A stretch of 64,000 nt of DNA from the NCBI RefSeq assembly GCF_026210795.1, contig NC_089440.1:434001-498000 (forward strand), given 5' to 3'. Shown here piece by piece: positions 5,960 through 55,090 of the stretch. A model generated the notes under the pieces. That model worked only from the letters and a program-made list of their open reading frames with translations, was not told the origin of the DNA and searched no databases. This stretch comes from Rhizophagus irregularis (taxonomy: Eukaryota > Glomeromycota > Glomeromycetes > Glomerales > Glomeraceae). A program made the translations under genes and the position numbers. Numbering within the stretch: the first letter of the stretch is position 1; each line of letters starts with the position of its first letter.

Positions 5960-8900
5960 GTATTCTGCAGTTTTGGTATTCTGTTCAAAACTGCATTATT
6001 AAATTTTTTTCTTCAAAGATTATATTGTGATTTTAGCCATTATAACAATGTAATCCATAACTTTATAGTGACTTCAATTACTAAGTAAAAGATTCAAAGA
6101 ATTACATTGTTATTTCAACTTCCATAACAACAAAATCCATAATTTTCATAGTGATTTCAATTATTAAGTAAGTATATACACAGTGAAATTCGATAAACCG
6201 GATCTATCGGTTCCACTAAAAATATCCGGTTTATCAGGATATCCGGTTTAGCGAAAAAATTTCAATATATTGAAAATCTATTATATTGAATTTTTAAAAA
6301 ATTTTCATGCTAATAAAACTAATATACACTATAATTTGATTTTTTCATCTAGTTTTAAGTTATAGAGGTCATGAAAATGAATATAAAATATTTTAATTGA
6401 ATATATAAGTAATACTTAACTTCAGCTGGAATTAAGATTTTTATAATTCCGGCCAAATTTAAGATTTACCGAATCACGTTACTTAAATTTTATTGGTTCC
6501 TAGTCACGTGATCCGGTTTATCAAATCATTTTTACTATAGCTGGTTAGAAAATTGATCTGTTATAGCGAATATCGAGCTTTTACTAGTAAACTCCGGTAT
6601 ATCGAGCTTATTTTAATATACGTGATTTGGTTCCAGCAAAAAAGTCCGGTTTAGGCCCAAATCCGGTTTATCAAATATCCGGTTTATTGAATTTCACTGT
6701 GTACTTACATATTGTTTTTTGTATTCTGCAATTTTGGTATTCTGCTTAAACTGTATTAATGGATTTTTTGTGAAGATTTAGATATTTTTCTTGCTTTAGG
6801 CACCTTTCATTGTTATCTATTTCATATTGATTTAACTAAAAACAAGAAAAAGAGTTAATAAGAATCCAAGATTATATTGTGATTTTAATCATTATAATAA
6901 TGAAATCCATAACTTTGTAGTGATCTCAATTACTAAGTAAAAGATCCAAAAAATTACATTGTCAACCACCATAACAACAAAATCCATAATTGTTATAGTG
7001 ATTTCAATTATTAAGTAAGTATATACTTACATATTTTTTTTTTAGTATTCTGCAATTTTGGTATTTGTTCAAACTGTATTATTATTAATCTTTGTTGCTT
7101 AGATCTAGAGAAAGGATTTTTGTATATGATTTAGATTTCTTCTTTAGGCATTTTTTATTTCTATCTGTTTTATATTGATTTAACTAAAAACAAGAAAAAG
7201 AGTTAATAAGAATCCAAGATTATATTGTGATTTTAGTCATTATAATAATAAAATCCATAACTTTATAGTGATCTCAATTACTAAGAAAAAGATCCAAAAA
7301 ATTACATTGTGATTTCTATCACCATAATAACAAAATCCATAATTTTCATAGTGATTTCAATTATTAAGTAAGTATATACTTACATATTATTTTTTGTTTT
7401 CTGCAATTTTGGTATTCTGTTCAAACTGTATTATTGGATTTTTTGTGAAGATTTAGATTTTCTTCTTTAGGTGCCTTTCATTTCTATCTATTTCATATTG
7501 ATTTAACTAAAAGCAAGAAAAAGAGTTAATAAGAATCCAAGATTATATTGTGATTTTAGTCATTATAATAATGAAATCCATAACTTTATAGTGATCTCAA
7601 TTACTAAGTAAAAGATCCAAAAAATTACATTGTGATTTCTATCACCATAACAACAAAATCCATAATTTTTATAGTGATTTCGATTATTAAGTAAGTATAT
7701 ACTTACATATTGTTTTTTGTATTCTGCAATTTTGGTATTCTGTTCAAACTGTATTGTTGGATTTTTGAAATTTTCTTCTTACTTTAGGCATTTTTCATTT
7801 CTTTCTATTTCATATTAATTTACTAAAAACAAGAAAAAGAGTTAATAAGAATCCAAGATTATATTGTGATTTTAGTCATTATAATAATGAAATCCATAAC
7901 TTTATAGTGATCTCAATTAATAAGTAAAAGATCCAAAAAATTACATTGTGATTTCTATCACCATAATAACAAAATCTATAATTTTCATAGTGATTTCAAT
8001 TATTAAGTAAGTATATACTTACATATTATTTTTTGTTTTCTGCAATTTTGGTATTCTGTTCAAACTGTATTATTGGATTTTTTGTAAAGATTTAGATTTT
8101 CTTCTTTAGGTGCCTTTCATTTCTATCTATTTCATATTTATAACTAAAAGCAAAAAAAAGAGTTAATAAGAATCCAAGATTATATTGTGATTTTAGTCAT
8201 TATAATAATGAAATCCATAACTTTATAGTGATCTCAATTACTAAGTAAAAGATCCAAAAAATTACATTGTGATTTCTATCACCATAACAACAAAATCCAT
8301 AATTTTTATAGTGATTTCAATTATTAAGTAAGTATATACTTACATATTGTTTTTTGTATTCTGCAATTTTGGTATTTTATTCAAACTGTATTGTTGGATT
8401 TTTGAAATTTTCTTCTTACTTTAGGCATTTTTCATTTCTTTCTATTTCATATTAATTTACTAAAAACAAGAAAAATAGTTAATAAGAATCCAAGATTATA
8501 TTGTGATTTTAGTTATTATAATAATGAAATCCATAACTTTATAGTGATCTCAATTACTAAGTAAAAGATCCAAAAAATTACATTGTGATTTCTATCACCA
8601 TAACAACAAAATCCATAATTTTTATAGTGATTTCGATTATTAAGTAAGTATTTACTTACAATATTGTTCTTTTTTAGTTTCTTTTCATTTCTATCTGTTT
8701 CATATTGATTTAACTAAAAACAAGAAAAAGAGTTAATAAGAATCCAAGATTATATTGTGATTTTAGTCATTATAATAATGAAATCCATAACTTTATAGTG
8801 ATCTCAATTACTAAGTAAAAGATCCAAAAAATTACATTGTGATTTCTATCACCATAATAACAAAATCCATAATTTTCATAGTGATTTCAATTATTAAGTA

Positions 8901-10685
8901 AATATATACTTACATATTATATTTTGGTATTCTGTTCAAACTGTATTATTGAATTTTTTGTGAAGATTTAGATTTTCTTCTTTAGGTGCCTTTCATTTCT
9001 ATCTATTTCATATTTATAACTAAAAGCAAAAAAAAGAGTTAATAAGAATCCAAGATTATATTGTGATTTTAGTCATTATAATAATAAAATCCATAACTTT
9101 ATAGTGATCTCAATTACTAAGTAAAAGATCCAAAAAATTACATTGTGATTTCTATCACCATAACAACAAAATCCATAATTATTATAGTGATTTCAATTAT
9201 TAAGTAAGTATATACTTACATATTATTTTTTGTTTTCTGCAATTTTGGTATTCTATTCAAACGGTATTATTGGATTTTTTGTGAAGATTTAGATTTTCTT
9301 CTTTAGGTGCCTTTCATTTCTATCTATTTCATATTGATTTAACTAAAAGCAAGAAAAAGAGTTAATAAGAATCCAAGATTATATTGTGATTTTAGTCATT
9401 ATAATAATGAAATCCATAACTTTATAGTGATCTCAATTACTAAGTAAAAGATCCAAAAAATTACATTGTGATTTCTATCACCATAACAACAAAATCCATA
9501 ATTTTTATATTGATTTCGATTATTAAGTAAGTATTTACTTACAATATTGTTCTTTTTTAGGTGCTTTTCATTTCTATCTGTTTCATATTGATTTAACTAA
9601 AAACAAGAAAAAGAGTTAATAAGAATCCAAGATTATATTGTGATTTTAGTCATTATAATAATGAAATCCATAACTTTATAGTGATCTCAATTACTAAGTA
9701 AAAGATCCAAAAAATTACATTGTGATTTCTATCACCATAACAATAAAATCCATAATTTTTATAGTGATTTCGATTATTAAGTAAGTATATACTTACATAT
9801 TGTTTTTTGTATTCTGCAATTTTGGTATTCTGTTCAAACTGTATTGTTGGATTTTTGAAATTTTCTTCTTACTTTAGGCATTTTTCATTTCTTTCTATTT
9901 CATATTAATTTACTAAAAACAAGAAAAAGAGTTAATAAGAATCCAAGATTATATTGTGATTTTAGTCAATATAATAATGAAATCCATAACTTTGTAGTAA
10001 TCTCAATTACTAAGTAAAAGATCCAAAAAATTACATTGTGATTTCTATCACCATAACAACAAAATCCATAATTTTTATAGTGATTTCGATTATTAAGTAA
10101 GTATTTACTTACAATATTGTTCTTTTTTAGGTGCTTTTCATTTCTATCTGTTTCATATTGATTTAACTAAAAACAAGAAAAAGAGTTAATAAGAATCCAA
10201 GATTATATTGTGATTTTAGTCATTATAATAATGAAATCCATAACTTTGTAGTGATCTCAATTACTAAGTAAAAGATCCAAAAAATTACATTGTGATTTCT
10301 ATCACCATAATAACAAAATCCATAATTTTCATAGTGATTTCAATTATTAAGTAAGTATATACTTACATATTATATTTTGGTATTCTGTTCAAACTGTATT
10401 ATTGAATTTTTTGTGAAGATTTAGATTTTCTTCTTTAGGTGCCTTTCATTTCTATCTATTTCATATTTATTTAACTAAAAGTAAGAAAAAGAGTTAATAA
10501 GAATCCAAGATTATATTGTGATTTTAGTCATTATAATAATGAAATCCATAACTTTATAGTGATCTCAATTATTAAGTAAAAGATCCAAAAAATTACATTG
10601 TGATTTCAATCACCATAACAACAAAACCCATAATTTTTATAGTGATTTCAATTATTAAGTAAGTATATACTTACAATATTGTTTT
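5960..10685. repeat. 14-unit tandem (satellite-like) array
   Basis: The anchor GATTATATTGTGATTT recurs at 6018, 6870, 7218, 7541, 7857, 8178, 8494, 8748, 9054, 9377, 9631, 9947, 10201 and 10509. Spacings fall in classes of about 254, 306-308, 316-323 and 348 bp; the first gap of 852 contains a MITE. Each unit has two related halves of about 80 bp. One starts TTATATTGTGATTT and the other TTACATTGTGATTT, and both run through AATCCATAA and TAGTGAT. A linker begins with the 16-bp palindrome GTAAGTATATACTTAC. Short units lack an internal part of the linker. All frames carry frequent stops, so the array is non-coding. Confidence 0.9.
6179..6701. mobile_element. TA-flanked MITE inserted in the satellite array
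   Basis: The 523-bp element has terminal inverted repeats of about 25 bp. The left end begins CACAGTGAAATTC and continues with a sequence like GATAAACCGGAT; the right end is the mirror image. The TA dinucleotide is duplicated at 6177-6178 and 6702-6703. Removing the element and one TA regenerates the palindrome GTAAGTATATACTTAC present in the other array units. The TA target fits Tc1/mariner/pogo-type mobilisation. The interior is rich in CCGGTTTA motifs and has no transposase. Confidence 0.9.
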
Positions 10686-14204: not shown

Positions 14205-16100
14205 AAACTTGAAAAACTTCATAATCATTGGCTTTAAACCCATTCTCCGGTACATCAATTTTAGGATAAGAGGATGAACTATTTGTACAGTCATACCATA
14301 TCCCATCATTAAAACATAAATCACTGCCTACACCAAAGAATGCACCATAATATGTAAAACTGCCTATGAATATTGATTACCATTACTATAACCTACTTTT
14401 GTATCTTCATTGTAAATGAGAATAAGAAGATATCATAATTAGACTTCCATTCATCACTTAAATCTCATTGAAGTGTATTATATCCTCCAAACATTTGCTC
14501 CGAATTTGTGACTCCTTTGTTATCACATTTTGTATGTGTATTACCATCCCTACAGAAGGCGATCAATGTTGTTTTGCTAAATTATACAGATCATCATGTG
14601 ATGACGTACTATAAACAATACGTAATGTTTTTTTTTTAGTAATTAAGGCACTCATCCCAAAAACTCGATATGCGATTATTTATGGTTTAGTAAAACTGCC
14701 GTTTATAATATACTTAAATGTAATCATGAAACTGGCTCTTTCACACCTACAAAAAGATCAGGTCGCTTACCACCCCTTAACTCACCAGCACGACAAGAAC
14801 TCAAAGCTTTTGTTCAAAAAAAATGATAAAAATCATCGTCTTTGTTCAAAAAAGCTTGCAACTGTATGGGAAGTTCGTAAAAAACAGCTTATTTCTGCAA
14901 TTACAAGATGCCGTAACCTTAAAAAAGTTGGACTTAATGCCTGTATTCCCCATAAAAAACCTGCAATGACAGAAACACATCGTCAGGCTCGTCTTGAATG
15001 GGCTCTTGCACACAGAAATTGGACAACAAGAAAATGGAGAAGAGTACTATTTTTATTGTATTATTTTATATGAAATTTTTATTTTAAAAAATGTCATAAA
15101 ATGAGTCATTATTTACGTTGATAGAATCAAATTTTCGTTTCCTAGGGGACTGTATTTTAATATTTAATTGTTTATCTGGAGCCATATGAAACACAAGTAT
15201 ATTATTAACTAAATCCTTTGGTAATATTTTTTTAAAAGGGTATACTTTAGTTATAAAATCTGCTGAAGAAATATTATAAAATCTTATTAATGGAATAAAT
15301 CCATGAATAGTTCTATCCATAATTACAATTTCTTCTTTATTCCATTTCTTAACATCTTTCTGAATAGAAGGATGTTGAGAAAAACACCATTTGATCAAGC
15401 TATCCCAAATAGCAATTTCATCCAATGACAAATCATCTCGTTTTAAAAGTAATTCTAATAAAGGTGCTTTCAAATTGACAAATTTATCAGATTTAAATAA
15501 TATGTCTGGTTTAGTGCAAATTTCTTTAAGGCAATAATTCCATAAATCTGTGAAAGTTTCATGTTGATAGATTGTTTCAAGAATTTCTATAGGATTTTGT
15601 TGTAAAAATCCATGTTGATGTTTAGTCAGATATTCTTGAATACAAAGAATTAGCGTTTGTATTTTAAATTCATCTACTGCTATCAAAAGCTTTAAAACAT
15701 CCGGTCCTTGTAAGTTTGTTAAGTCAACCTTTCCACAATAAATAAACCTAAATTTGAAAAAAAAGAAAAAGAGATATTATACACAGTTTACACTGCGGCA
15801 GTAGATTTGTATAAATAATATATTTAATATTTATTTTAATTACCTTAAAATAATTTTTAAAAATTGAAGAGAAATATTAGGGAAATTAAAAATAAATTTT
15901 TCATTCTTGCAATTTTTGATCAATTCTTTAGAGAGGGCCGCACGAAAATATTTAGATCTAATGCGTAAAAGATTTGAAAATGCATGTATTTCTTTCACGT
16001 TTTCATTTTCACCGGCATAAATAATAACATCATATCCTTCGTCGGTTTCAAGTAATTTCTCACAATCTCTAATAACTTCCTGAGAATAATCGAAAGACAT
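14205..16100 (-). pseudogene. BTB-BACK-TLDc gene A, truncated by a transposon fragment
   Basis: Exon 1 (16100-15844) encodes the first part of a BTB/POZ domain, with VIIYAGENENVKEIHAF and the family RIRSKYFR motif. A 96-bp intron (GTAATT...TTTAG) follows. Exon 2 (15747-15084) starts FIYCGKVDLTNLQGP and gives the rest of BTB plus the BACK region (ELLLKRDDLSLDEIAIWDSL). The frame then runs into a stop just as the TLDc domain should begin (about NNDSFYDIF). Recognisable but heavily frame-shifted TLDc sequence resumes at 14545-14205, beyond the Tc1 fragment. The start is set at MSFDYSQ, as in gene B. What remains could still make a 306-residue BTB-BACK protein without TLDc, so 'pseudogene' may be too strong for the 5' part. 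Confidence 0.85.
14600..15075 (+). mobile_element. Tc1/mariner transposase fragment
   Basis: The plus strand encodes the N-terminal part of a Tc1-type transposase: KLATVWEVRKKQLISAITRC, LKKVGLNACIPHKKPAMT, then HRQARLEWALAHRNWTTRKW and RRVLF. The family continues with the first catalytic Asp motif directly after this, and it is missing here. Upstream, another frame reads GRLPPLNSPARQELKAF, so one frameshift separates the helix-turn-helix region. The fragment sits inside gene A in opposite orientation and separates its BACK and TLDc parts. No terminal repeats are identified, so the boundaries are approximate. Confidence 0.8.
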
Positions 16101-22708: not shown

Positions 22709-23074
22709 TTAAAATTTAATTAATTGGTAAGTAGGAGACCTAGTTTTATAAGAATTATATTCAATAGCATCACTACTAAAATTCAAATATACTCTTCTAG
22801 CATCATCAGATAATTCATTCCACTTTTCAGTTGCAAGCTTGGAAATAGTTGATTTAAGAAAGGCATGTTTATGAAGTGCTTCATATTCTCTTTTAAAAAC
22901 AAAACAAGCAAATCTTGACCTTGAAAATGTAAGTTTTGGACCGAAACTGTTGAATGAGAATTTAATTGGATGATTTACTGTTTGAATATTCTTATAAATA
23001 ATTTTATGTTTATTATTAGCTAGTTCGACTGCAGAAGTTGCAGAAGTTGAAATTATATTCTTTTCTTGCGACAT
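22709..23074 (-). CDS. MATA-type HMG-box protein
   Basis: This single-exon gene encodes 121 residues. The HMG box covers about residues 52-106, with FACFVFKREYEA in helix 1, then KLATEKWNELSDDARRVY and NFSSDAIEY. The N-terminal 50 residues are polar and low-complexity. The C-terminus TPTYQLIKF-type (here SPTYQLIKF) is shared with the second HMG gene at 53023. Such proteins bind DNA and, in these fungi, form a large expanded family related to sex-locus HMG factors; a mating function for this copy cannot be inferred. It lies 575 bp upstream of gene B in the same orientation. The usual Pro-Asn-Ala-Phe of helix 1 is altered to Phe-Ala-Cys-Phe, so DNA contacts may differ. Confidence 0.88.
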   Translation of the reverse strand: MSQEKNIISTSATSAVELANNKHKIIYKNIQTVNHPIKFSFNSFGPKLTFSRSRFACFVFKREYEALHKHAFLKSTISKLATEKWNELSDDARRVYLNFSSDAIEYNSYKTRSPTYQLIKF

Positions 23075-23099
23075 ATTTTTTTAAAAAAAAATGTTAAAA

Positions 23100-27670: not shown

Positions 27671-28473
27671 TAGAGCTTTGAACCGGATAACCCTAATGCT
27701 GTTATGGGGTTATCCGTTTCAAAAAAATTGTATCCGAATACCCTGTGTCAGTTAGTAACAGATAAATCCGAATGAAAATTATAAGATATTCGGATTATCC
27801 TAAGCTTACAGGCGCAGCAATTATCCACACATATTTATTTATTATAATTAATTCAAATAAATTTATATTTATTACATTTTCGCTCGATTTAATTTTACTT
27901 AATCAATTAAACATCATATCAACCATGTTACCATTTCTTTTAAGAAGTATTAATGCTTCAAACAAGTCTTCTTTCATTGAAGTTCTTTTAGCTGTCATTA
28001 TCAAGCCTGCATCTCTAAATACATGTTCACTTGCGCCTGACGTTGCTTGAATTTGATAAATATTTTCTAGCAATTTGGCTAAAATTGGAAACTGTCTTTG
28101 ATTTGCATTCCACCATTTTAGAGAATCTTGGTCCCTAGGAATCTGAGCTATTGCAAGATATTGTTCAACCTCATCATCTCCATTTTCTTTCTCAGATAGT
28201 TCCTTTTCATATTGTATTATTTATATTATTTTGTGCTAGTGTAGTTTCTTTATTATTATCACTAGTAGCCATTTTTAGAAGAGTTAAAAGCTTAAAAATA
28301 ACAATTAAGCTATAAACTATTATTAAACCTGGGATATCCGAAAGTATAATCCGGATAATCCTATATAAAAAAAAATCAATATTCGGATACTCTATAAAAA
28401 CAATCCGGATATATAGGCTAATAGGATAAATCCTAGAGTATTCTAGTTACATTACCCGTTAAGGAAAGCTCTA
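27671..28473 (-). mobile_element. Internally deleted hAT element with 8-bp target duplication
   Basis: The 803-bp element has termini TAGAGCTTT/AAAGCTCTA and is flanked by a perfect 8-bp duplication AATTCTTT (27663-27670 and 28474-28481), the hAT hallmark. On the minus strand it keeps the very start and the very end of a transposase. MATSDNNKETTLAQNN begins at 28272 and stops after 21 codons. In another frame the C-terminal dimerisation domain runs DDEVEQYLAIAQIPRDQDS, LKWWNANQRQFPILAKLL, then QATSGASEHVFRDAGLIM and a stop at 27903. The catalytic region is gone, so any movement needs help from elsewhere. Subterminal CCGGATAAC/TATCCGGA motifs may be transposase-binding sites. Confidence 0.9.
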
Positions 28474-41884: not shown

Positions 41885-43456
41885 AATTAAATTGAAATGG
41901 TGAAAATCTGAAAAATTTATTAGTTCTGGAAGATTTTTAAAATTTAAAAATCTACTGATATAAATTGCTCGGGTATGAGTTTTAATACCTTCAGACTTAT
42001 TTCCATTTGATCTATTTTTCAATTTTCTTTTTCTAGTTTTATCATATTCTTCAATTTGAGAACGGATTTATCATCTTTATGTTCTTTTTCTTCCCATTTC
42101 TTTAATTTATGGTATAACTCTTTAGAATTTGGTCTATTTTTTTGCTTCAGCATCCCAAAATTTCATAATTAAATCCACAAGAAATGCTGGAATATCTTCA
42201 GAAATTTTCAGTCTAAATCCTTTCTTTACATACTTAACAGCTAAAGTATAATCATGAGGAATATTATTAAAAGGAATTTCTTCAGAAAGAGACTCATTCA
42301 TAATTATTCCAAATGAATAAATATCAGCTGCTTTTGTATATTGATATCCACGTAAAACTTCTGGTGCCATATAAGGTAATACTTCATAAACTCCTTTTTT
42401 ATCTAATCTTTTTTCGTTATTTGCTAGCTACACATTCCTAAATCACTTATGAATATAGCTGACATGTTAAATAAATAATAACTGAATGAAAGTCTTTATA
42501 AACATTTTCAGCATTATGGATATCTAACAGTCCGCTTGCAATTTTTATAATTTCTTAATTTTGTTGTTAATATCATTTTCAGGCTTATTTAAATAGAAAT
42601 TTCTTAAATTTCCATCTTCACATTAATTTAAAACCATCATATAATCTTTGGTATTTGGATCTTGAGTTACTCCATAACAGAAAACAATATCCCACAAATA
42701 AATCTGTAGGTGAAATTTGATCTAATTTTAAAAATTTTTTTAAAGGAAATAAAATTTATTAAAAAATAAAATAATCCAATTGCAAAATAAATTAAATTTT
42801 TTATTTAATTACCTCATTATTTAAAAAATCTGTACTAATATCCAAAGAATTACCCAAACTTTTTAATGCAACTTTTTGTTCTGTAAATCTGTACCATTTT
42901 TGATTTTCATTATTCCAATAACTAGTAAATCCTCAGCTGAATAAATTTTATCACATTTGTAATATTTTGAAATTTCTCAAAAGGTATCCATTCAAGACAT
43001 TTTGTATGATGTAGAGCATTAAGTTGTGAATGTTGTATTAATTCATCAATATCTTTATTTCTACTAGTCCAATTTTTAATATTTTCTTTAAATCTTTTTG
43101 CAATACAAAGTTGACACCAATATCTTTCTGTGTTAATTACATTCTCCACATATACCATATATTTTTTTTTCTTTTTTCCAAGTCTCCCATATAAATTACT
43201 TTATCATCAATCTCTTCTGATAGGGTACTATTTGAATCAACAGAAGAAATTTTAACATGTACATTTGAATAAAAGAACAAAAATATATTCTTTATTTACT
43301 AAACAGTTAAATCATATTATTTGTAATAAATTATAAAGTAAAATTACATTTACCTGATATCTATAAAGATTGACATTTTTCAATAAGTCTTTCTTCAGAT
43401 AATTTATTAACACTACTAGTGTCTCTTGATCTGAATATTTTTTTCAACAATTCCAT
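41885..43456 (-). pseudogene. TKL-like protein kinase pseudogene
   Basis: Minus-strand pieces occur in the order of the family. They are a start MELLKKIFRSRDTSSVNKLS (43456) with a stop soon after; RYWCQLCIAKRFKENIKNWT; HTKCLEWIPFEKFQNIT; KVALKSLGNSLDISTDFLN; VTQDPNTKDYMMVLN; then MAPEVLRGYQYTKAADIYSF from 42370 and a truncated end of the C-lobe (WDAEAKK). A frame-shifted tail carries HKLKKWEEKEHKDDKSVLKL. The glycine-rich ATP loop that should follow FEKFQNIT is deleted. The activation-segment APE motif is intact, but at least two stops and several frameshifts precede it, so no active kinase can be made. Introns seem retained (GTAAATG after exon 1), so this is a decayed gene and not a retrocopy. 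Confidence 0.85.
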
Positions 43457-49168: not shown

Positions 49169-50875
49169 ATGTCTTTTGAACAGTCTCAAGAAGTTATTAA
49201 CGATTATGAAAAATTACTTGAATCTGATGAAGAATATAATGTTATTATTCATGCGGGCGAAAATGAAAATGTAGAAATAATACACGGACATTCAAATATT
49301 TTACGTATTAGATCTCAATATTTTCGTACGGCATTTTCTAATGAATTAACTGAGAAAAAGGATGGAAACTTTATTTTTATTATTCCTAACATTTCTCCTC
49401 AATTTTTTAAAATTATTTTAAGGTAAATTTTAAATAAATCGTGTATACATATATATGAAATTAATTGTCAATTATAACTAAATATTTTTTTTTTTTAATA
49501 CTTAAGGTTTATTTATTGTGGAAAAATTGATTTGACGAAATTACAAATATTGGAGGTTTTAAAACTTTTGATAGCAGTAGATGAACTCAAAATTCAAACA
49601 TTGATTCTTTATATTAATGAATATTTGATTCAACATCGTGAATTTTTAAAACAAAATCCTATAGAAATACTTGATACCGTTTATCAAGTTATTCAGAATG
49701 ATATTTTCTCAGATTTATGTGATTATTGTCTTGAAGAAATTTGTGCTAAACCAGAAGAATTATTTAAATCTGATAAAATTTTAACTTTAAAAATGCCTTT
49801 ATTAGAATTACTTTTAAAAAGGGATCATTTGTTTTTGGATGAAATTGTTATATGGGAAAGTTTGATTAAATGGTGCTTGGCTCAACATTCTAATATTTCA
49901 AAAGATCCTACACAGTGGAATAAAGAAGAATTAATGACCATGGAAAGAATTATTCATAGATTTATTCCATTAATAAGATTTTATCATATCCCTTCAGCAG
50001 ATTTTATTACAAAAGTATACCCTTTTAAAAAAATAATACCAGAAGATTTAATTGATAATGTACTTGTATTTCACATGGCATCAAGTGAACGATTAAATGT
50101 TGATATACAACCTCCTAGGAAACCAAAAATTATTTATGATTCTATAATTAATAAGAAAAAATTTGCTATTATTTCTAGTTGGATAGAAAAGAAAAATCAG
50201 TATTATTATAATGAAAAAAATATTCCTTATGATTTTAATTTAATTTACCGTGCCAGTAGGGATGGTTATACAAATACTGCATTTCATGAAAAATGTGATA
50301 ATAAAGGAGCTACTATAGTTGTGATAAAAATCGCAAATTCGGAGAAAATAGTTGGAGGATACAATCCACTTTTTTGGGATTCAAGTAACACATTTAAATC
50401 TACTTATGATAGTTTCTTATTCTCATTTACAAATAAAGATAACCATAAAAGTGCAAAATTATTATTCTCACTTTTAAATAAGGATAACCTTCAAAGCGCA
50501 AAAGTAGGTTATAGTAACGGTAATACATATTCTATAAGTTGTAATTCAAGTTATGGACCAGCATTTGGTGGAGGTAATGATTTATGTTTTGGTAGTGGGA
50601 CGTATTATAATAATGCATTTGGTGGAGGTGGTTATTTTAATGGGACGTGGTATAGTAATACAAATGTTAATTACTTGAAAAACTTCAAAATTATCTGCTT
50701 TAAAATTTGCTGGTATACCAATATTAGGATAAGAGTTATTAAGAGTTATAAATATGATGAAATTATTAAAAAGAGATTAATGCGCAATGTTATATTTTAC
50801 TTTGTTTACTTTGTCATATTATTCACCGTTTTAGTAATTTCGATAAATTTTTTGAATAAGTTTAATATATACTAG
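49169..50875 (+). CDS. BTB-BACK-TLDc domain protein with altered C-terminus (gene D)
   Basis: This is a two-exon gene: exon 1 49169-49422, an 84-bp intron (GTAAAT...CTTAAG), exon 2 49507-50875; 540 residues against 460-469 in B and C. BTB: VIIHAGENENVEIIHGHSN, RIRSQYFRTAFS, FIYCGKIDLTKLQ. The BACK-like region contains ELLLKRDHLFLDEIVIWESL. TLDc starts near residue 305 (FAIISSWIEKKNQYYY, LIYRASRDGYT, VGGYNPLFW). Two oddities affect TLDc. A 45-bp duplication repeats FSFTNKDNHKSAK as FSLLNKDNLQSAK. A 62-bp inversion (50674-50735) replaces the conserved last strand. The frame then reads on about 45 residues past the usual end, finishing in a hydrophobic stretch (VIFYFVYFVILFTVLVISIN) that could act as a tail anchor. 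Expression is not established. Confidence 0.85.
50674..50735. other. 62-bp micro-inversion in gene D
   Basis: On the plus strand this segment (CTTGAAAAACTTCAAAATTA through GGATAAGAG) matches the antisense strand of the TLDc 3' end in genes A and B (20650-20710, 14205-14270). Reading it in reverse complement in place gives SYPNIGIPANFK and FEVFQVIK in the frame of gene D, the family C-terminus. The inverted order happens to contain no stop, so the frame stays open. Confidence 0.9.
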
Positions 50876-51674
50876 CTGTAGCATGTTGCGTTGCGACAGG
50901 ACTAAATAAGTTAAAATCAATATAACAATAAAATCTTTGTTTTATATTTAAATAAATTAGATCTTATATAATATTAACACGTTTTTATTTTAATTATATC
51001 GTTGATCAGGTGAAAGAGCGAAAAAAAGAAAAATAGAAAAAAATTAGTAAAATAAAAAAATTATTAAAAAAATAAAAAAATAATGCTTACTGTAAGACGA
51101 TCTAGGATAGTAGTATCCAGATCTAAAGCCTAAAAGACGAAATAAATAATAACTGATAACGATAATATACCTGGTATACATATATAAATTATGGCGTGGC
51201 GGCCAGGATTCTCATAATTCTGGCCAAAATTGCACAATTCTGATAATTCTGGCCAGGGTTGCTTATTTTCGGGGTGCTTGCTAACCGCAAAATACGGTAA
51301 TAAAAAAAATATGTATAAAAAATAAATAAAAAAAAATAAAAAAAATATTTAGTATAAAAAACCGGAATGTATTAAAATTTCGGTTAAAAGATCCGGTCTA
51401 ATAAAAGAACGACCGAAAAAAAGATTTTAAAATCTGGATGATGCGATCGGCCGCAGCCCATCGGAACGTACACAACTACACATATGCAAACCATAATAAT
51501 CCTCGGAATAGATCAAGAAAGGCCTAGCCCGATCTATAGCAAACGAGGTGTGTCAGGTGTGTCGATTGATTAGCATTCCAAAAATCGGCCCATACGCACA
51601 GACGAATCACAATTCAATAATATTTATGCAAGTTAATCTAAACATTATCGGTTACACAAGAAAATTTTTCAACT
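50876..51674. other. A-rich repeat-like interval downstream of gene D
   Basis: It begins CTAGCTGTAGCATGTTGCG (compare 16936). It then has A-rich DNA with TTCTGGCCAAAATTG and AATTCTGGCCAGGG (51210-51260) and ACCGGAATG/TTTCGGTT/GATCCGGT phrases. A GC-richer patch at 51440-51560 (GATGCGATCGGCCGCAGCCC) has no tRNA or rRNA features that I can identify. Confidence 0.4.
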
Positions 51675-51869
51675 ATATATATGTTGTGCCTCAGATTGAT
51701 TCTTGCCTCAGATTAAAACTCACGCTGCGTGAGATCAACACCAGATCACGTGCATTACATATATGGTAATTTTACTATGTAGATCATCACGTGTATATAC
51801 ATAATTCGTCACATCCTATTGGTAGTTTTAATCTGAGGCAAGAATCAATCTGAGGCACAACATATATAT
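51675..51869. mobile_element. Short MITE with perfect ~46-bp inverted repeats
   Basis: The 195-bp element is bounded by ATATATATGTTGTGCCTCAG, continuing ATTGATTCTTGCCTCAGATT and AAAACT; the right end is the exact complement. The terminal TATATA suggests a TA target. The interior (about 100 bp) has CACGTGCATTACAT and CATCACGTGTATATAC. The same terminal motif opens the larger insertion at 18943. Confidence 0.9.
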
Positions 51870-53022: not shown

Positions 53023-53400
53023 TCAGAATTTAATTAACTGATAAGTAGGAGTTCTAATTCTATAATCATGATATTCACGAGCATCATCACAAAAATTTTT
53101 ATATCTTTGTCTAATATCATCAGGTAATTCCAACCACTTTTGAGATGCGAATTTTGATAAATCTCTTATTTTATAAATTTTATATTTAAAAAGTGTAAGA
53201 AGTAATTCTCTTCTAAAGATAATAAAGGCATTTGGAATCCTCCAAGTTCGATTTCTATATCTTCCATTTCTTGAATGATTACTTTGATAAAGATCGTTAA
53301 ATGATAATTTATTTGGAAAATTTACTTGAATATTTCTATATATCTCTTCATATTGATTATTGGTTAATTCAATTGAGTTTATATTCCCCTCTTGAGACAT
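53023..53400 (-). CDS. MATA-type HMG-box protein
   Basis: This single-exon gene encodes 125 residues. The HMG box covers about 53-110: RIPNAFIIFRREL carries the typical Pro-Asn-Ala-Phe of helix 1, followed by LSKFASQKWLELPDDIRQRY and NFCDDAREYH. The N-terminus (MSQEGNINSIELTNNQYEEI) and C-terminus (TPTYQLIKF) match the HMG protein at 22709, so the two are clear paralogues. This copy keeps the consensus helix-1 residues and is the better candidate for a DNA-binding factor. It converges with gene D, about 2.1 kb apart. Family knowledge supports nuclear DNA binding; the target and any mating role are unknown. Confidence 0.9.
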   Translation of the reverse strand: MSQEGNINSIELTNNQYEEIYRNIQVNFPNKLSFNDLYQSNHSRNGRYRNRTWRIPNAFIIFRRELLLTLFKYKIYKIRDLSKFASQKWLELPDDIRQRYKNFCDDAREYHDYRIRTPTYQLIKF

Positions 53401-53419
53401 GAAAAAAATTTTATTTTTG

Positions 53420-55090
53420 AAGGAATAAATTTACGGACCAAATCCGATTAATAACCCTTTTATATACACAAGTTACACGGAAGATCGTTTTACCTGGGTT
53501 ACTCAAATGGAGATGATGATCCAAAAGAATTGAATTGCGAAGATATTATTATATGACATATGACATGTAACTTTATGAAACCTTAAATTTGTTTCTTAAA
53601 CCTTTTTGCAACAATATTCTATTTTTATTATTATTTTTATTATTATCTTCTTAAAAGATATTAATATGTTTAATATTGCATGAAAAGATTCAAATTCAAA
53701 ACGGATCTATTACTACGACTAGTAAAGATCTGAAATCCCGACTCGAAAGTCATTATCCCAAATTTGATTAAAAATTTATGCGAATCAGTGATGCGGCAAT
53801 TGCGGAATCTTACTTTATATAGCCTAAAAAATTTTGGACTAAATTTTGGGGTATTTCATTAAAGCCAATTGTAATAATATTGTTACACAGACAACAATAT
53901 CAGTAGATATGATTAATTGAATCATCGCCGCAGTAAAATCTCTAATTCCCGCAACAGGTAAAGTAGGAGGCTTAGACAAGATTTATTTATTAATTTATTT
54001 ATAATAAGCCATATTAATCCTTTAACTCGAGATCCAGATAGATAATTTGATCGATAATCTCTTTTTTTTTTAATAAAAATCTTTTTTCATATTTTTTTTT
54101 AGATGTATCGAAACTTTTAAAAAGACCAAATTTTTAAAATTTTATTTCTATTTCACAAATATTTAAATAACGATATCTTAAAATATTAAAAAGTCAACAA
54201 CTATAAATCATTGATATTTCAACTTATTTTATATTAAAATCTCGCAAAACTTTAATCTATTATTAACAATGAAAACGAAAATAGCGAAAATTATAAATAC
54301 ATATTTACAATCTAATTTTTTTACGTGTATTACGAATCTTGTCAACTTATCAATAAAATAAATTTATTACATTATCTCAAAAATTTAACATTAGTTATAA
54401 ATATTTTTATTCAATCAATATTTTTATGCATAAACTTTTTCTACTTCAATATTATAGACTTATATATCAATATACTACTACATCAACTCCTTATTATATA
54501 ACAATAAAATTTAAATAAATATAACTAATCGATAACATGAAGTATATGTATTAATTTTATTATTATTTACCATTATTACTTTTAAAATTTCCAATACATT
54601 CATCAATTACTGCCATTATTAATTTAATATTTTCAAATAATTCATACTTCAAATACTAAAATATTGAACAATTTACACAATTAAATCACGAGGTCGCCAT
54701 TATTATGTTGCATTATTTATTCAACAATTCAATATTGTTTATCACAAACCAATAGAAAACTGGTGGTAACAATATGATTCTAACAATATGACTCTTGAAA
54801 ACGAAAAATGTAAAGTTTATATACTGTTAAAAGATCTATGATGCATGGACCATGTTGAATAATTATACCAAATTTTCCATGGAAAATGTATTGATCAACA
54901 ACTAGTCTTTCAAGAAGAATTTCAGTACAATTTGATGCATCATGTTGAAATGACTTGATATTTGATCTCATGACATTGATTGAAATTATGATCCAACAAC
55001 ATATTGAATGATGATATGAATTAAATACATACTAGAAAACAATTCAACATCCTATTCACCTTAATAATCTATATTTTGATTCATCAACGC
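53420..55090. repeat. HMG upstream region, copy 2 of a duplicated flank
   Basis: This region is paralogous to 23100-25060: TACTCAAATGGAGATGATGA, CCGCAGTAAAATCTCTAATT, TACTACATCAACTCCTTATT, CATCCTATTCACCTTAATAA. The frame at 54780-54971 has no domain and no counterpart in copy 1, so I treat it as chance. Confidence 0.65.

Follow-up and report, generated by a model that had tools for sequence, protein, structure and literature searches.

Does the last exon of a BTB-BACK-TLDc gene of Rhizophagus irregularis carry a short stretch that was turned around in place, and did such a single event give the gene the unusual C-terminus that it has today? Both had been proposed in an earlier note on this DNA. 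The gene, here called copy D, lies in a window of 64,000 nucleotides (C12:434001-498000), i.e. the whole stretch of DNA analysed, which was compared with the genome of 146,748,485 bases on 32 contigs. A non-exhaustive search of the literature on template switching, coding microinversions, and the Rhizophagus family found no description of the D locus.

Structure of copy D and its family

Copy D has the architecture of its family, which consists of a BTB exon and, behind a retained intron, an exon coding for BACK and TLDc; the whole frame, comprising both exons read across the intron, is open (Table 1). In exon 2, the Pfam matches to TLD (53.7 bits) and BACK (21.3 bits) are each above the cut-off. 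The acceptor of the D intron is AAG; the 14 other family introns recognised by our script end in TAG (13) or CAG (1). TLDc is a huge family in the genome of Rhizophagus irregularis: at least 150 places, each scored individually, are above the cut-off (986 candidates at first look). A profile search for solved structures gave none at 0.01, and a search with the single protein gave only a weak match (4acj, E 0.22).

Table 1. Features of copy D and its surroundings (positions in the window)
Feature	Position	Strand	Basis or remark
Copy D, BTB-BACK-TLDc gene	49169-50875	+	Rhizophagus irregularis
Exon 1, start codon and BTB domain	49169-49422	+	Pfam BTB 29.6 bits (cut-off 20.5), translation
Intron, 84 bases, GTAAAT...CTTAAG	49423-49506	+	Splice points read from sequence
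Exon 2: BACK and TLDc, inverted stretch, new tail; stop 50873-50875	49507-50875	+	Open frame
45-bp in-frame tandem duplication in TLDc	50414-50503	+	D-specific; units 82% identical
Left arm of flanking inverted repeat, TTAATTA	50667-50673	+	6 of 7 complementary to right arm
Inverted segment, which in the family orientation encodes the TLDc end SYPNIGIPANFKADNFEVFQ	50674-50735	-	Opposite-strand matches to paralogues
Perfect 10-bp tandem repeat, TAAGAGTTAT twice	50730-50749	+	Spans the right junction
Right arm of flanking inverted repeat, TTATTAA	50736-50742	+	Relatives have GTTATTAA there, coding for VIK
C-terminal extension, 43 residues past the family stop	50744-50872	+	No relative found in the genome
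Second TTATTAA, where the alternative 103-bp inversion would end on the right	50763-50769	+	
Hydrophobic stretch VIFYFVYFVILFTVLVISINFL	50789-50854	+	Kyte-Doolittle; modelled helix
Dispersed repeat supplying the last codons and stop of D	50855-50980	+	Genome DNA search

The window holds three more copies of the family, A, B, and C. Copy A was apparently disrupted by a mobile element: the two matching pieces of this copy are separated by a fragment of a Tc3-type transposase at 14615-15070 (+), which matches Pfam HTH_Tnp_Tc3_2 with 43.4 bits. Further features of the window are a remnant of a hAT dimerisation region (27906-28220, -), a protein-kinase fragment (42137-42427, -), an HMG box-like open reading frame (53026-53430, -; 24.9 bits, slightly below the cut-off of 25.4), and an open reading frame at 22712-23080 (-), for which a Pfam search gave no match at 0.01. 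Two nearly identical open stretches of 71 codons (7566-7778 and 9656-9868, -), about 2.1 kb apart, suggest a local duplication. Just downstream of D lies a perfect 46-bp inverted repeat (51675-51720 / 51824-51869), whose arms are 103 bases apart.

Orientation of the D segment

For each paralogue, the strand of the best match to the D segment was compared with the strand of the match to the D body. The first set consisted of 40 copies: A, B, and C from the window and 37 fetched ones. In all 40, the best match of D 50667-50742 was opposite to the strand of the gene body, with E-values from 9e-19 to 0.005; the weakest were those of L007 and L017 (E 0.005). The second set comprised 15 further copies taken from the results of a search with the D body (40 places scored of 308 candidates). 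Here, the D segment was opposite in 15 of 15 cases (E 1e-16 to 4e-4), and none of these copies matched it in D's own orientation at E up to 0.05. The in-place microinversion proposed for 50674-50735 is thus borne out: at this site, D carries the reverse complement of related sequence relative to 55 of 55 paralogues, the reference being paralogues and not an orthologue. The closest match to the segment is copy B (87% identity over 68 nt, E about 1e-18). Because the large family offers so many reference copies, the event can be demonstrated without a second genome.

The coding sequence leads to the same result. For 15 chosen copies, the summed local alignment score rose from 938 to 1597 when 50674-50735 was turned. 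Unturned, the D codons from 50675 onwards read LKNFKIICFKICWYTNIRIR; turned, they read SYPNIGIPANFKADNFEVFQ, the C-terminus of the family, which is regained in frame as NVNY-SYPNIGIPANFKADNFEVFQ-VIK, in accordance with the earlier note. Since LKNFKIICFKICWYTNIRIR is read in place of SYPNIGIPANFKADNFEVFQ, 20 residues are replaced in D. The note had also considered that paralogues might share the inverted form; none of the 55 does. In an all-against-all comparison of the minus strands of 41 copies (E up to 1e-3), 36 of the 40 others matched the D segment, L007, L015, L017, and L035 being under the threshold, and no copy besides D had a comparable pattern of inverse matches. The inversion in D is therefore confirmed as real, and D is the only flipped one among the 56 copies compared.

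Several other minus-strand matches were considered and rejected. A second microinversion in L015/L036 was ruled out, because L015 is normally oriented with respect to its close relatives. By eye, the remaining matches are scattered or lie in AT-rich palindromes. Those of L002, L014, L024, L031, and B near gene positions 700-745 (850-885 in B) are AT-rich and palindrome-like; L024 and others match themselves near gene positions 700-745. Those near gene positions 40-130 resemble T/A tracts, again by eye.

An error of assembly or polishing is almost certainly not the cause of the inverse orientation. In the description of what is presumably this assembly or a close version of it (PMC10234402), the reported quality of Q36.27 permits small errors; the same source gives a Nanopore assembly at 77-85x and Illumina polishing at 227-232x, and a clean flip of 62 bp that is unlike every tested paralogue would be atypical of consensus errors. 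It is likewise very unlikely that the segment was not turned in place and that, instead, D's own sequence gave way to the 3' end of another paralogue, copied in antisense. Dozens of related templates are present on the same contig, but none of the 55 copies exceeds 87% identity over the whole segment, and higher values belong to pieces of 25-38 nt. Moreover, the divergence of the segment equals that of the gene body: in a coarse test, the mean residual against the body-based prediction was +0.013, with lower values in 23 of 36 copies. Divergence of this size agrees with D's own DNA having been turned around fairly recently, and not with a copy from elsewhere.

Boundaries and flanking repeats

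The exact ends that had been claimed for the inversion did not hold up. Four pairs of limits (50673-50736, 50674-50735, 50675-50734, and 50676-50733) score equally well, copy B favours a 103-bp version, and grid searches and the global test disagree between copies as to the exact boundaries. The outer edges of the inversion adjoin the arms TTAATTA and TTATTAA, which constitute a near-perfect 7-bp inverted repeat. In the open frames of the 40 copies, equally good adjacent arms were found for 163 of 40,317 intervals of 62 bp (0.4%), a frequency to be read with the caveat that the arm length of 7 bp was picked after inspection of the sequence.

The longer inversion, of about 103 bp (50667-50769), is a variant compatible with our preferred explanation and a possible, if rather doubtful, one. 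In this case, 50743-50769 would be the former loop, then the VIKK end of the family would follow with the old 3' UTR directly after it, and the family stop would have been removed by a small deletion. The 103-bp interval is bounded by an identical TTATTAA arm. When compared with B, it scored above the 62-bp model by 10 to 21 in five of five global scorings and was also ahead in all four grid-search scorings; several other intervals, however, outscored it against the same copy. The 3' flank of D past the second arm resembles those of B (nominal p 0.003) and A (nominal p 0.03), but these are two of 17 flank tests, and the other 15 copies gave p above 0.15. In the global test of 39 copies (L031, one of the 40, lacks the tryptophan anchor and was excluded), the 62-bp model was better against 30-37, depending on the scoring; note that this test may favour the shorter model where the 3' flanks are non-homologous. 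Summed over the 40 copies, the version 50667-50770 reached 2961 compared with 3366 for the short version. The longer variant also requires a loop that is, by eye, longer than those of the other copies. On balance, we favour the 62-bp version over the 103-bp version with moderate confidence.

Open frame through the flip

An inversion preserves length, so it cannot shift the frame, and the avoidance of stop codons is the sole requirement for continued reading. The antisense reading of the flipped segment is indeed free of stops, and in this respect the earlier description was accurate. Its view that the kept frame is notable is contradicted by control flips: considering all 62-bp intervals in the exons of the 36 intact copies, 7,273 of 37,215 random flips (19.5%) stay open, and at the homologous site the frame remains open in 20 of 35 copies. 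As a sign of selection, the open frame thus counts for little at best. For flips of 103 bp, the corresponding number is 2,521 of 35,739 (7.1%).

A cryptic intron at 50655-50727 would remove most of the flipped stretch and let the predicted protein end at WYR. Its GTAATA donor and AATATTAG acceptor are similar to those of the family intron, and joining them gives WYR plus a stop. Comparable donor-acceptor pairs are, however, frequent (176 in 42,795 nt, occurring in 33 of the 36 intact copies), and we regard such splicing as highly improbable.

Origin and properties of the C-terminal tail

According to the original proposal, the inversion created the new tail in one step. This is not the case: if the segment is turned back, the frame reaches the same stop and has the same extension of 43 residues after VIK, so that the tail is present with the segment in either orientation. 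It exists because the family stop is missing and not because of the inversion; both the missing stop and the continuing D frame are observed. All 40 copies of the first set stop within 6 residues past an EVFQV-like motif, whereas D runs 43 residues past VIK. The two changes that had been described, about 21 residues replaced and about 45 added, are thus both present, the correct counts being 20 and 43.

A search of the genome for protein relatives of the D tail (E up to 10) found none besides D, which rules out the tail as a shared feature of the family. At the DNA level, the last codons and the stop come from a dispersed repeat. Of 48 candidate places, 40 were scored, which gave 39 further occurrences at 73-94% identity; a longer, AT-rich match lies on C11 and, in the 701 bases that were read, is by eye a non-coding repeat. 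Extensions were seen in other copies, too. In the second set, L049 has one of about 11 residues, as counted from the listing, and in L043 (C12:660010-661960) a basic stretch of about 25 residues follows the usual motif; D is therefore not alone in having a shifted stop.

The tail had been called hydrophobic, and it is strongly so: its maximum Kyte-Doolittle value over 19 residues is 2.83, compared with a maximum of 1.39 in the rest of exon 2, to which this calculation was confined. The usual threshold is 1.6. As a control, we used 269 stop-ended non-coding tails of 43 residues from the window, the DNA of which has 25% G+C. Three of these reach the value of D, 10% pass 2.0, and 25% pass 1.6. 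Among the 120 frames read after the stops of the 40 copies, six run for at least 38 codons, and four of these six pass 1.6. As a quarter of the non-coding tails are above 1.6, transmembrane-like tails are cheap in DNA of this composition, although the tail of D is an extreme one. Values above 1.6 being so common, chance is an adequate explanation for the hydrophobic tail.

TLDc domain and constraint on D

The match to the TLD profile covers positions 6-161 of 170 in D, compared with 5-169 in B and 4-169 in C. The complete TLDc C-terminus is absent from D, where the antisense reading LKNFKIICFKICWYTNIRIR stands; an EVFQ-like motif is found in 40 of 40 copies of the first set. We take the lost residues to be a core strand of the TLDc fold. 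AlphaFold, run with three sequences of the window, gave a mean pLDDT of 49.7 for B and 40.6 for D, with the TLDc part below 50 in both, too low for a usable model of this domain in either copy.

The omega test used 23 relatives, drawn from the 36 copies with an exon 2 frame of at least 340 codons. Eleven copies of a distant clade, L007, and L019 were excluded, and the short-framed copies A, L009, L031, and L037 are also absent. D was truncated before the inversion, and a codon column was kept if at most four copies lacked it, which left 364 columns. Pairwise omega outside the inversion was 0.35-0.53 for D against nine relatives. The median of D over the 23 relatives, 0.42, is the highest of the 24 copies; for the 253 pairs without D, the median was 0.36 with quartiles of 0.33-0.40. 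In six pairs, distance-based tip estimates ranged from 0.44 to 0.63 for D and from 0.28 to 0.48 for the relative in the pair. Five of the pairs gave the higher value to D; the sixth (L024) did not, with 0.46 for D versus 0.47. D is thus mostly constrained, yet somewhat more weakly than most of its relatives. In the tree, it lies on a long branch, the placement of which is weakly supported (0.563).

D differs from its relatives in further respects. Its 45-bp tandem duplication ends 170 bp upstream of the inverted segment, and none of the 36 intact copies fills both units in the alignment. A second tandem duplication of about 54 bp is possible at 50561-50662 (repeats 75-87%), or the pattern in the alignment may be ordinary loop variation. 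The 45-bp duplication and the AAG acceptor suggest that constraint on D has relaxed, with its coding past still recognisable in the sequence.

Because the last conserved TLDc residues are gone, a loss of TLDc function in D is likely; taken together with the somewhat weaker constraint, the missing TLDc end makes it most probable that D is losing this function.

Proposed course of events

We consider it quite probable that D underwent a fairly recent microinversion associated with inverted repeats while relaxing or degenerating as a member of its family, and that the stop was lost separately. During replication or break repair, synthesis would have switched from one of the arms TTAATTA and TTATTAA to the other and returned, using the opposite strand as template for about 60 bp or more of D's last exon, which remained at its site in reverse orientation. 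The flip is length-neutral and by luck stop-free, and 20 residues encoded by the antisense strand now stand where the conserved TLDc end was. As a separate change, the family stop was lost, and the frame continues for 43 codons into the T-rich 3' flank, where it gains a hydrophobic end and meets a stop inside the dispersed repeat. On this view, D is most likely losing its TLDc function, and the tail is a by-product. Probably, the inversion was an accidental copying error, and copy D is decaying and not gaining a new job.

As the molecular cause, a microinversion by template switching or break repair fits the anatomy of the locus. Seven-base arms are short for classic template switching, and the break-repair version would fit D better because the arms are both short and imperfect. 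Against decay, it can be argued that BTB and BACK of D are above their Pfam cut-offs and that the excess of omega is modest in the five pairs in which D is higher. As omega is well under 1 and the whole frame, including the intron, is open, D may still make a selected protein.

Such a protein could be a functional innovation, namely a membrane-anchored BTB-BACK protein that dropped its TLDc end and uses the T-rich tail as a putative C-terminal anchor. The hydropathy of the tail, reached by few control tails and by nothing else in exon 2, points in this direction, as do the basic residues (KKRLMR) preceding the hydrophobic stretch, the modelling of the tail as one helix (AlphaFold block pLDDT 64 and 71, exon-2 residues 431-450), a body omega under 1, and a precedent in yeast (PMC7005711, see below). 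The large fraction of non-coding tails that pass the threshold, the lack of a tail homologue in the genome search, and a constraint somewhat below that of most relatives argue against this interpretation, and we judge it unlikely. The more elaborate assumption that local replication errors (the 45-bp duplication, the inversion of 62 to 103 bp, and the stop loss) together built a still-selected protein of this type appears distinctly unlikely. D exemplifies how several local rearrangements can gather at the 3' end of one gene copy. Production of the D protein would offer a natural test of whether peptides encoded antisense or by read-through are tolerated; without it, the changes would be nothing unusual in a duplicated gene on its way to decay.

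Comparison with known systems

The following comparisons refer to the available parts of the cited papers. The definite microinversions between human and chimpanzee, 17-33 bp long, all have flanking inverted repeats of 3-75 nt; the authors ascribe them to template switching, or to microhomology-mediated break-induced replication where the repeats are short and imperfect (PMC8755829). The D inversion resembles them in being in place with short, partly imperfect inverted repeats at its edges. It differs in its length of about 62 bp, perhaps 103 bp, and in its location within coding sequence; in the part of that source at hand, no protein is changed by the microinversions.

In coding genes of Saccharomyces cerevisiae, ten spacer inversions were described, with changes of 2-5 bp and arms over 9 bp; the largest event changed five residues and had an ancestral arm of 5 bp (PMC8604942). 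As in these cases, the flip in D lies between the arms of an inverted repeat, and the coding frame stays open. Unlike in yeast, where at most five residues are affected, 20 residues are changed in D, and the arms are imperfect and 7 bp long.

Recent de novo C-termini that arose through the loss of stop codons have been reported for Saccharomyces and Drosophila (PMC4494051). D likewise lost its stop, and its 3' flank is now a C-terminal extension; in D, however, the stop loss is combined with a neighbouring inversion. Finally, transmembrane segments are known in yeast to originate from thymine-rich non-genic DNA (PMC7005711). The hydrophobic stretch of D is similarly read from T-rich non-coding sequence; in contrast to the yeast segments, it was added to an existing gene.

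The event in D is a clear case of a known type of mutation, and a rather long one. As a coding microinversion with an open frame, it exceeds the lengths given in the parts of PMC8755829 and PMC8604942 available for this comparison.
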